NCBI GenBank assembly: GCA_027315255.1
Contig: DAHUYL010000056.1
Coordinates: 1-64,000, forward strand
Length of the DNA stretch: 64,000 nucleotides
Source: Solirubrobacterales bacterium
GTDB taxonomy: Bacteria > Actinomycetota > Thermoleophilia > Solirubrobacterales > Solirubrobacteraceae
Reading direction: 5' to 3'
A program made the translations under genes and the position numbers. The notes under the pieces are model-generated. The model was not told the origin of the DNA and ran no database searches. It saw only the letters and a list, made by a program, of their open reading frames with translations. Each line of letters opens with the position of its first letter. Position 1 is the first letter of the stretch. Shown here piece by piece: positions 8,698-62,613 of the stretch.

Positions 8698-8830
8698 ACC
8701 CGACAGGATCAGTCGTCTGCCGGGCGGCCGAGGCTGTGATGCCTCGGCCGCCCGGCCGCTTGGCGTGGCCCGTCAAGGCCGACGTCCGGGCCGACTCGAG
8801 CCGGGCCCGAGGCCCGCTGAACGACCGCTA

Positions 8831-8868
8831 TGTGCCACACCCCCGCCGCGGAAGGGGGGTGTGGCACA
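8831..8868. repeat. Hairpin H1: 14-bp perfect stem TGTGCCACACCCCC / GGGGGTGTGGCACA
   Basis: Read directly; loop gccgcggaag. Confidence 0.95.
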
Positions 8869-8892
8869 TTCGCGCGCTCACACGACGCCGAC

Positions 8893-8928
8893 GTGCCAAC
8901 CCCCTATTTCGGGAGGGGGGTGTGCGCA
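8893..8928. repeat. Hairpin H2: imperfect stem GTGCCAACCCCCT / AGGGGGGTGTGCGCA
   Basis: Read directly; second member of the H1/H2 pair. Confidence 0.75.
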
Positions 8929-9063
8929 GTTGAGGCCACCCGCCGAGACCCTGCGCGAGCCTGCAGGCAAGCCAGCGTCCCATCTCACCGGCCCGGTCAA
9001 GCGGCGAACCGGCTCCTCCACGTCGAGGGTGGGTACGCAGCTTCGACGACCGGAACGTCGAAA

Positions 9064-9155
9064 CCCCCCTGCCGACCGGACGGGGGTGTGCAGACAGCGT
9101 TGCTACAGCGCGCCGTTTGCACAGCCCCCGGCAGCTCGCTGGGGGGGTTGTGACC
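9064..9155. repeat. Hairpin pair H3/H4: CCCCCCTgccgaccggaCGGGGGTGTGCA and TTTGCACAGCCCCC..GGGGGGGTTGTGA
   Basis: Read directly; weaker, shorter stems than H1 but same C-tract/G-tract and TGCACA/TGTGCA boundary. Confidence 0.6.
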
Positions 9156-9439
9156 GCTTCGGTCGTCCCGACGCTGCCGCGCGCCCGCGCGCGAGGACCG
9201 CTGGTCCGCCGCCAGCCCGCGCGCCGGCTGCTCCGCCCGAAGCCCGCGCCGCCCGGTCCGCCCCCGGGCCTGGACGGCCGCTCGCCGCGGACCGACCCGG
9301 CGAAGCCGAGGTCCCGGGCGGGCTACATCTCAGCTGAACCGGGGGTCTTCGCCTGCGAACCCACAGCAAACGTGGAGACGTGGAGAAGCCGGCGAACCTG
9401 ACGGAGCACCAAGGCGTACGGCGGTGTCGCCGCCTCCCG

Positions 9440-24563: not shown

Positions 24564-24992
24564 CCTATTTGCGGACGGGGCGTTGCCTCGTCGGGTTGGT
24601 CGCGAGCGTCGGGCGGCCCGCGATGCTGCGGCGAGCGTGGTCAGGAGGTGCGCGCGGTCGAGCGTTGTCGCCTCTGGGTGCAGGTCACGCGGAAACGGCA
24701 TAAGCTCGACAGCACCGAGGTTTGTAGTTGGGGTGGTGCAGATCGGCTGGGTATGGGGGCGTGGCCGCGCGAGGTGTGATCGTGGGGGCGGTGGTGTTGA
24801 GGTTGTGCCGTCTACGCTGGCGGACTCGTCCCGCGCCTCCCGTGCACCCGCGGCGATCGGCTGGTCGTGCTCGAAGCCGAAGTCGCGGATGTGCATGATC
24901 CGTACACGGTAGACGGCGTCCGGACCGCTGGTCGCTGCCAAGGCGGGCAGCTGGAAGGAACTCGCCGGCAGTCGCAGAACCCCGACGGAGAC

Positions 24993-59820: not shown

Positions 59821-60065
59821 GCAATAACCGTAGGGCGCGCCGCGGGGCGTGATCTCCGTGGCGCGCACCGAACGGCGCTTCTCATTCCTACCCTCGGTGC
59901 GGCCGGATTCGAAGCGATCGAGACGCACACGACCCGGTTGGGGCAACCAGAGGGGCTTTGTCAGGCGAGCGCTCGACGCGCGGGACCGTGCGTGCACGGG
60001 GGGCGAGCGCCGCCGGATCGGTGGCCGGGGGTTGGCTGGGAGGGTGGCCGGGAGCGTGACCGGGC

Positions 60066-60113
60066 GCGGGCCGGGGTGCGGGCGGCGGTGCGGGCCGGGG
60101 TGCGGGCCGGGGC
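60066..60113. repeat. Four tandem 12-bp units gcgggccggggt
   Basis: Read directly; unit 2 has GGCGGCGGT variant. Confidence 0.9.
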
Positions 60114-60122
60114 GAGCTGAAT

Positions 60123-60156
60123 CTGCCAACCCCCGGGATTTGCCGGGGGTTGGCAG
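60123..60156. repeat. Hairpin H5: CTGCCAACCCCC / GGGGGTTGGCAG, 12-bp perfect stem
   Basis: Read directly; loop gggatttgcc. Confidence 0.95.
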
Positions 60157-60183
60157 CTCAGACCATCTCACAGGTGGCTGTGG

Positions 60184-60217
60184 CTGCCATCCCCCCGCTG
60201 GGATGGGGGGTTGGCAG
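60184..60217. repeat. Hairpin H6: CTGCCATCCCCCC / GGGGGGTTGGCAG, 12 of 13 pairs
   Basis: Read directly; loop gctgggat. Confidence 0.92.
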
Positions 60218-60369
60218 ATTCGAACGCGTGTGCCGGACCGCTTCGAGCCCGGCCACGGGCCGGCTCGGACGCGCCCGACCCCGGGGCTCGCCGGCGCGGG
60301 CGGCCGGCGCTCGCTGCGAGTCGAGTCGCGGGCGGCCACGACGTTCGCGAGCACCCCGACAAGGCACTG

Positions 60370-61923
60370 CTAGTTGCTCGGCACCTTGAGATCGACGTGC
60401 CAGCTGTAGCTGCGCCCGTCGATCGCGCGTTGGGCGCTCAGCTCGCTGGAATCGCTGCCTCCAGCGATGTTGTATTCGTGGATCCGCAGCGTCTGGCCCG
60501 GGCGCGCGCTGTTCACGATGTCGCAGACGTCCGACATCGTTCGCACGGGCGTGCCGTTGATGTTGTAGATCAGCCAACCGGCGCCGACGTTGGCTTTGTC
60601 GGCCGCTGAGCCCGGCTCGTCCCCGAGGTCATACATCCCGGTCGTCGCCGGCTTGGCCTGGAGGAAGGCGGCGGTATCGGCCGCCAGCCTCGACGCGTAC
60701 GGCGCGTACGTGGAGTCGCTCGCGTAGATGTCCTCGAGGGTCTGGGTGAGATGGGGGTCCTCGGCGGACAGCTGGACGAGGTTCCAGCCGATCAGGCCGT
60801 GGCTCCGGCCCGCCTCGAGGTCCGGTAGGAGTCGCTTTGCGTAATCGATCGCGATCGAGTAGTACTGACCCTGATTGCTCGGGTTGCCGAGCGTGTTGAT
60901 GCCAACCACCTGGCCTCGCTCGTCGAGCAGCGGCCCACCGGAGTTGCCGTGGTTCGTCGGGGCCTGATGAACGATCAGACTCTGGTAGGTCGGAAGCGAC
61001 GGGTCGGGGGTTGCCTGGACGTCGACCTGTGAGACGCTGCCGATGTTGGCAACGACGGTCGAAGCCTGCTGCTGGCCGATCTGCCCGCTGCCAGGTGTCG
61101 TCTGGAATGAGCCCGGGAAGCCGAGGACCGTGACCGTGTCGCCGGGGCGCACGGTCGCGGACGTGCCGAGCGGCAGCGCCTTGAGCCGTGGCAGCGGGGT
61201 CACGAGCTTGACCACTGCCAGGTCGTCGCCCGGGCTTGCCGCCACGAGCTGCAGCGGGCTGGTGCGGCTGCGGTCATCGCCCAGCTGGGCCTCGAGGGCG
61301 CCGTTACCGACGACGACATGGGCGTTGGTCAGGACCAGCTGCCGCTTGGCATCGATGACGACGCCCGAGCCGGCGCCATCTGAGCCGGTGATCCTCACGA
61401 CCGCAGGCGATGCTCTTGCGATCAGCTGCTCGGGCGTCAGGCGCGTCCGCGAAGCGCCGTCGACGATCAACGCGACGATCGCGGCGGCCGCGCCGATGAG
61501 CAGTATCGACGTGCCGATCAGCGCGCCCCGCGTGGTGAAACCGATGCGGCGGCGGTGTCGCGAAGCCGGCGCTGCAGGCGGGGCAGCTTCGGACGGCTCC
61601 TCGGAGGCCCGGACGACTGCCAGCTCTCCTCCCCCGATCGTGAGCCGATCGCCCGGTCCGACCACGGTCGGGGTGGTGATCTTGAGGCCATTCACGAACG
61701 TGCCGGTGCCCGATCCCAGGTCGTGCACCACCAGGTGCCCTTCGCGCAGCTTCAAGGACGCGTGCTCCCCGGATACGCCGGGACCGCCCAAGACGATGTC
61801 GCAATCCCGATCGCTGCCGACGATCAGTCGATCAGCGCCGATTTCGAACGTGTCGCCGGCGCGGATTCCCCCACGAAGCTCGAGGCGCAGTCTGGGATCG
61901 CCCGAGGATCCAGGATCGCTCAT
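60370..61923 (-). CDS. FHA domain - TM - trypsin-like (S1C/DegP-type) serine protease - PDZ-like
   Basis: FHA LIVGSDRDCDIVLGGPGVSGEHASLKL; LTNAHVVV; APTNHGNSGGPLLDERGQVVGINTL. Confidence 0.9.
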   Translation of the reverse strand: MSDPGSSGDPRLRLELRGGIRAGDTFEIGADRLIVGSDRDCDIVLGGPGVSGEHASLKLREGHLVVHDLGSGTGTFVNGLKITTPTVVGPGDRLTIGGGELAVVRASEEPSEAAPPAAPASRHRRRIGFTTRGALIGTSILLIGAAAAIVALIVDGASRTRLTPEQLIARASPAVVRITGSDGAGSGVVIDAKRQLVLTNAHVVVGNGALEAQLGDDRSRTSPLQLVAASPGDDLAVVKLVTPLPRLKALPLGTSATVRPGDTVTVLGFPGSFQTTPGSGQIGQQQASTVVANIGSVSQVDVQATPDPSLPTYQSLIVHQAPTNHGNSGGPLLDERGQVVGINTLGNPSNQGQYYSIAIDYAKRLLPDLEAGRSHGLIGWNLVQLSAEDPHLTQTLEDIYASDSTYAPYASRLAADTAAFLQAKPATTGMYDLGDEPGSAADKANVGAGWLIYNINGTPVRTMSDVCDIVNSARPGQTLRIHEYNIAGGSDSSELSAQRAIDGRSYSWHVDLKVPSN

Positions 61924-62052
61924 GGCGCGGCTCCTTGACGTCGAGGTCGATTGCTCGACGGTACCGCCGGGTGCCCGGCCCGCATCCGTCCAAGACTGCA
62001 GGTCGCACCGTGGATTCCGGCAGAGTGCGCAGAGGGCCGGCCACGGTCGCCA

Positions 62053-62083
62053 GCTAGCGCTAGCAGCCAGCGCTAGCGCTAGC
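62053..62083. repeat. Two self-palindromic GCTAGCGCTAGC 12-mers (62053-62064, 62072-62083)
   Basis: Read directly. Confidence 0.95.
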
Positions 62084-62240
62084 GCCCCTTCTGGCCGGTG
62101 CGCGCGTGGGCCGCGCCCAGATCGAGGCCGATCGCCAGGATCAGCGTGGCCGTCCAGGCGTTCACCGGATCGAACAGCAGAGGCTCGTGACCGCCGACGT
62201 TGTTGGCGATCAGCCAGACGATGAACCAGAGAACCGTCAT
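62079..62240 (-). CDS. Small membrane protein (53 aa)
   Basis: MTVLWFIVWLIANNVGGHEPLLFDPVNAWTATLILAIGLDLGAAHARTGQKGR. Confidence 0.5.
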   Translation of the reverse strand: MTVLWFIVWLIANNVGGHEPLLFDPVNAWTATLILAIGLDLGAAHARTGQKGR

Positions 62241-62613
62241 ACGAGCACGCTGCCATGGGTGACGGGCGCTGCACATCCGGTGCAAGCGGCGCACACCGCT
62301 AGGCCAACTACGTACCGATCGCAGCTGACGTCGACTGCGCGGCTGTCGCTGTCCCTGACGAGCGGCACTGGGAGTAGGCCCCCGCGGCTCGGCTGGACGA
62401 ACACGCTAAAGTTAGACAGACTCTCGCCAAACTCTCGGCAGCGGTGCCGCGACCACGCTATGATGGTCACATGTCTGTCCGCAGTCTGTCGAAGGAAGTC
62501 GCGCACCCGAGTTCCGGATCGCCTCTCGCCCGCGGGCAGCAGTCCGGAGGAGGCTTTGCGTGTGCGGTCTGCTGCGAGCGCTCGCGTTCGCGTCTGGTTC
62601 GACGCGAGCGGCG

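Follow-up and report, generated by a model that had tools for sequence, protein, structure and literature searches.

Paired hairpins in a probable IS701-type MITE-like element and their likely kinship to a genus-wide family of stand-alone hairpins

Three described systems come close to the paired hairpins reported here. REPINs (PMC3116915) consist of inverted palindromes set at a fixed distance, which are extragenic and dispersed, can fold into one long hairpin and carry compensatory changes, and the hairpins of this study share all of these traits. They differ from REPINs in having no RAYT association and no GTAG/GGAG tag, in their low sequence conservation within a genome, and in stems that are longer than those of typical REPs. 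The CGTC-tagged REP dimers (PMC3733652), with stems of 8-9 bp and loops of 4-5 nt, resemble our hairpins as palindromic dimers for which the transposase is not known. In our hairpins, however, the stems are longer, CGTC is not a fixed terminal tag (CGTC or GACG lies within 16 nt of an end in 26 of 53 stand-alone copies), and one class, that of genome G011, is unrelated in sequence. Finally, MITEs derived from IS701 elements are, like the element in our locus, short, non-coding and present in many copies within one genome, with 4-bp CTAG-like target copies; an IS701 element in one congener also has terminal inverted repeats almost identical to those at our locus. Unlike such MITEs, ours has no partner with the same ends that we could find in the source genome, and its type I form contains both an array of 12-bp tandem repeats and a sizeable palindrome as its core. 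A literature search on MITE and IS701 combined returned one paper, in which the terms are simply mentioned.

Two separable things emerged from our analysis: a species-specific burst of an IS701-type MITE whose core is structured, and a hairpin family that is more widespread and keeps its shape as its sequence changes. We give a probability of roughly 0.78 to the reading that the hairpin pair H5/H6 forms the palindromic centre of a non-autonomous, MITE-like element belonging to the IS701 family, and that this core was captured from the stand-alone hairpins. Our confidence is high that the dispersal unit of H5/H6 is an IS701-type MITE, and moderate that H5/H6 are kin to the pair H1/H2.

Within the window (the whole 64-kb stretch of DNA that we analysed), H5 occupies 60123-60156 on the plus strand and forms the left half of the core, with 14-bp arms (60123-60136 and 60143-60156) that are 100% complementary around a loop of 6 nt. 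H6, the right half (60184-60217, plus strand), has arms at 60184-60196 and 60205-60217 that form 12 of 13 pairs, with a T/T mismatch at 60190/60211. As a preliminary description of this DNA had claimed, both are near-perfect hairpins that start 61 bp apart, and the same spacing separates H1 from H2 (ATGTGCC at 8830, ACGTGCC at 8891). That description had overlooked an outer dyad, perfect over 16 bp, in which 60119-60134 pairs with 60206-60221 and joins H5 to H6. Its account of the surroundings was accurate: the pair is flanked by two minus-strand genes, by the start of a YncE-like gene on one side and by the stop codon (60370-60372) of an FHA/trypsin-like protease gene (ORF 60370-62274) on the other, and it lies next to a 12-bp GC-rich tandem repeat that consists of two overlapping arrays (60020-60075 and 60062-60112).

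The source genome, a 4.3-Mb draft that is 92% complete, has a GC content of about 72%, a composition in which hairpins might be expected by chance. This explanation is refuted by several observations. With at most one mismatch allowed, the window holds 8 copies of the 11-nt core motif TGCCAACCCCC where shuffles predict 0.83, and 0 of 100 shuffles reached that count. The draft genome has 70 exact copies, whereas the reversed pattern has 0. At most genome sites, the outer core copies lie 82 bp apart, as they do at H5/H6. The copies also have ends, flanks and target copies in common, and a model of the core found no match in 60 relatives of similar composition. The genome-wide scan and the comparison of spacing that the preliminary description had proposed thus both bear out its view of a dispersed element rather than chance.

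When sites across the genome were compared, the sequence common to H5/H6-type sites reached well past the hairpins, and the approximately 28 cores that we could align in the source genome share their linker and flanks. In the window, we delimit a 419-bp element, a type I copy, at 59951-60369 on the plus strand, with terminal inverted repeats at both ends that are common to other copies; these repeats, starting at 59951 and 60369, had previously been overlooked. The 5' repeat (59951-59979, plus strand) reads AGGGGCTTTGTCAGGCGAGCGCTCGACGC and the 3' repeat (60340-60369) reads CAGTGCCTTGTCGGGGTGCTCGCGAACGTC on the minus strand, and across copies the two take the forms NRGYGCTTTGTCRGGTSGAGCGCTCG (5') and NRGYGCTTTGTCGGGTTGANCGCGATCGTC (3', inverted). 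Between them lie the tandem repeats (60020-60112, plus strand), a stretch that differs in length among copies, and the long-hairpin core (60108-60230, plus strand), which is separated from the 5' end by 59-168 nt depending on the copy. The element holds no transposase gene, only short, mechanically called ORFs, none with a recognised frame. Its terminal repeats are present at dozens of places in the source genome, and 27 congeners gave no match to the terminal-repeat pattern or to the core model. We rejected carriage by a phage, plasmid or virus: phages and viral contigs gave no match, and one Streptomyces plasmid record gave a partial match (72%, covering 33% of the query).

Just outside the terminal repeats, we found target copies of 4 bp that fit YYAR. 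Of the 17 elements in which both ends are present, 2 of them with pairs aligned by eye, 6 had perfect target duplications (CCAG, TTAG, CTAG, CTAA, CCAG and TCAG) against 1.1 by permutation (p = 0.00015). The other 11 of the 17 have no perfect duplication. In the window copy, the left target copy, CCAG (59947-59950), directly precedes the 5' terminal repeat and fits the YYAR of other copies, and it matches the right one, CTAG (60370-60373), at 3 of 4 bases. The protease gene has its stop codon within the right copy, which means that an element targeting CTAG can insert at the end of a gene and leave the protein unaltered. The targets of the element would then be CTAG-like sites such as this stop codon.

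Targets of 4 bp resembling YTAR suggested the IS701 family, and we tested this lead. In congener G021, the transposase at locus L105 passes the NCBIfam IS701 model NF033540 (432.6 bits, cut-off 150) and is flanked by CTAG followed by TAGTGCTTCGTTAGGT and by CTAG followed by TAGTGCTCCGTTAGGT. Many intact IS701-type elements among 80 loci examined from named genomes have ends in which CTAG is followed by TAGTGCT..GT.A, and there are named IS701 elements with CTAG followed by TAGTGCTTTGTCA, including a Hamadaea example with CTAG followed by TAGTGCTTTGTCACGT. The MITE end CAGTGCTTTGTCAGGT closely matches these IS701-family ends, both TAGTGCTTCGTTAGGT of L105 and TAGTGCTTTGTCACGT of Hamadaea. Given these ends, the CTAG-like targets and the 4-5 bp direct repeats that IS701 members are reported to yield (PMC8024623), the best reading of the window element is a non-autonomous element of IS701 type.

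We considered the transposases of the source genome as autonomous partners. The two DDE_5 transposases there, which belong to another type, have no matching ends, so the mover is lost, unassembled or absent; matching ends are also lacking for DDE_Tnp_1 (PF01609), and neither the source genome nor its congeners yielded an autonomous element whose ends are exactly these. The elements may have been moved in trans by a transposase of IS701 type that has since been lost or is not in the draft. Separately, we observed that the 3.5-Mb, one-contig genome of congener G011 has 26 DDE_5 (IS701-type) transposase matches, mostly of near-identical score, a pattern of recent IS expansion.

Sister elements of types II and III have the same ends with other interiors and no twin hairpins. 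One of them, a truncated type III element, lies within the window (24581-24848, minus strand) and carries the same 3' terminal repeat without the twin hairpins. Inside type II/III elements (e.g., L041 373-504), about 130 bp form a conserved block that terminates in GGTGCTGTCGAGCTTATGCC.

The architecture of H5/H6 could also suggest a REPIN proper, that is, a REP doublet moved as a single-stranded hairpin by a RAYT (Y1) transposase: two inverted palindromes at a fixed spacing, extragenic and dispersed, with compensatory changes and the option of one long hairpin (cf. PMC3116915). Six congeners do encode Y1 transposases. However, we detected no Y1 transposase in the 92%-complete source genome or in several hairpin-bearing congeners (G004, G005, G008, G010, G014 and G019), none of the six congener Y1 loci that we checked has a hairpin beside it, and of 53 copies only 3 have GTAG/GGAG close to an end. 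Since the MITE copies, in addition, bear DDE-type ends and target copies, we consider a REPIN improbable. A REP-type mechanism, with the single-stranded binding or transposase association raised in the preliminary description, is therefore unsupported, the associated transposase being of the IS701 (DDE) type.

The preliminary description had placed H5/H6 in the same family as H1/H2. A family defined by the shared string TGCCACACCCCC was rejected with three occurrences only, and we therefore sought the relation with covariance models. The first, R2, was built from six H1/H2-like copies and found about 30 further stand-alone copies in the source genome, as well as copies in 10 congeners. The second, R3, was built from stand-alone copies with zero MITE copies in training; its alignment, A5, consists of 53 stand-alone copies aligned with MAFFT without structure, row L223 being left out. 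R3 recognised about 34 stand-alone sites in the source genome and, within the genus, matched the source genome and 15 of 24 other congeners (16 of 25 genomes in all), against a single marginal match in 15 genomes from other families of the same order. In the window, it matches H1/H2 (8817-8940, plus strand; 95.3 bits, E = 1.2e-14) and H3/H4 (9045-9170, minus strand; 85.3 bits, E = 6.2e-13), both of which were in its training set. Neither H1/H2 nor H3/H4 have MITE-type terminal repeats or lie in that element; H1/H2 are also unmatched by the model of MITE cores, and on these grounds we rejected H1/H2 as members of the MITE. Rfam 15 gave no match at gathering score across the whole window, and a relaxed search of 59900-60420 returned chance-level matches only; the stand-alone hairpins of about 125 bases are apparently an undescribed family, absent from Rfam 15.

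The unit of this family, about 125 nt long, comprises an outer stem, an internal loop of roughly 10 x 10 nt, an inner stem and an apical loop. All 28 consensus pairs show compensatory change among the 53 copies of A5 (323 cells vs 118 in shuffles), and covariation is 0.551 compared with 0.192 in shuffled alignments (0 of 500 as high) and at most 0.14 when the partners are slid. The hairpins are nearly strand-symmetric. The stand-alone sequences fall into classes, among which that of G011 is unrelated in sequence and identical in geometry. Across many species of the genus, the fold of this family is conserved, whereas its sequence turns over. We also asked whether the palindromes might be double-stranded, operator-like sites, placed about six helical turns apart for binding by a dimeric protein. 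Both the 61-bp spacing and the length of the internal loop (~10 nt) are constant, as this would predict, but arm sequences vary widely within one genome with their pairing kept (mean identity 0.55), which is unexpected for the sites of one protein, and the outer stem reaches past the palindromes. We therefore regard operator sites as highly doubtful.

R2, trained on stand-alone copies only, recovers H5/H6 (E = 7.8e-6) with the same geometry, as does R3 (46.9 bits, E = 2.3e-6), and a common origin is therefore likely. A convergence of two palindromes is also conceivable, as the MITE core and the stand-alone family have different apical sequences and blastn finds only short similarity between the two (best 81% over 37 nt). 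Our models make derivation of the MITE core from the stand-alone family the likely account, and the H5/H6 core would probably be a captured copy of the genus-wide hairpin of about 125 nt. The claim of a single family thus stands as a distant kinship, as R2 and R3 find H5/H6, but not as membership of one element, given that H1/H2 have neither MITE ends nor a match to the MITE-core model.

Whether the MITE core folds as one hairpin or two could be addressed with its 28 aligned copies. For the single long hairpin, 6 pairs were changed on both sides and covariation was 0.087 (1 of 500 shuffles as high), compared with 3 pairs and 0.043 for the two-hairpin fold (186 of 500 shuffles as high). On these figures, and on the pair counts from A5, a single long hairpin is the better supported fold.

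As far as can be judged from flanking genes, hairpin sites of the source genome have no orthologues among those of distant congeners, and similarity is higher within a genome (0.55 and 0.71) than between genomes (0.46), as would be expected for a family renewed by copying. The close relatives G011 and G020 have at least nine sites in common. At nine orthologous sites, substitution was 8.6% in stems, 19.4% in internal and apical loops and 18.3% in flanks (p = 3e-9 and 2e-6), a comparison biased towards conserved stems because the model had to recognise a site in each genome. A second caveat is that 36 pairs were broken and 3 compensated.

The conservation of stems at these sites raises the potential that the hairpins are functional RNAs or bidirectional 3'-end elements, such as terminators or mRNA protectors, that are kept by selection at each site, with dispersal secondary. 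With genes predicted by a simple codon model, 30 hairpins lie between tandem, 19 between convergent and 8 between divergent genes, and the excess of convergent spacers by count (p = 0.002), together with the near strand symmetry, would agree with this idea, although weighting the spacers by length removes the excess (p = 0.59). In 92 flanks, no T-run of four or more occurs within 12 nt beyond the stems, and we rejected intrinsic terminators in the absence of T-runs. No Rfam family matches, and the repeated unit at H5/H6 clearly exceeds the hairpin. We consider this reading, with dispersal secondary, possible but rather unlikely.

Tentatively, and at less than even odds, we suggest that the stand-alone hairpins are a new genus-wide extragenic class, selected for a two-stem shape with a fixed internal loop over sequence. 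They would be replaced from species to species with no RAYT involved, perform a structural task in DNA or RNA, and sometimes be captured and amplified by an IS701-type MITE. In our main reading, each would act as a strand-symmetric extragenic hairpin, as REP dimers are thought to be, in DNA, RNA or both, and its role, judging from our analysis, would most likely be that of a strand-symmetric 3'-end element or a binding platform. We find these hairpins the more interesting part of our results, being REPIN-like without the REPIN tag or transposase. Since the architecture occurs without that transposase, it can serve to test whether REP-like hairpins persist by moving or by being of use to the cell, and R3 and the orthologous G011/G020 sites make this question directly testable.

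We rejected the idea that the stand-alone hairpins are carried by larger repeated units, as their flanks are mostly not common to the copies. An exception is the pair formed by H3/H4 and locus L232: window positions 9011-9378 and L232 (G000:C185) 777-1189 are 94-96% identical across the hairpin and its flanks, and insertions or deletions abut the hairpin on opposite sides. At L053 (G000:C23), around positions 1825-1860, two terminal-repeat elements seem to abut with a single CTAG in common, as if one had entered the target copy of the other, and a stand-alone hairpin directly adjoins them.
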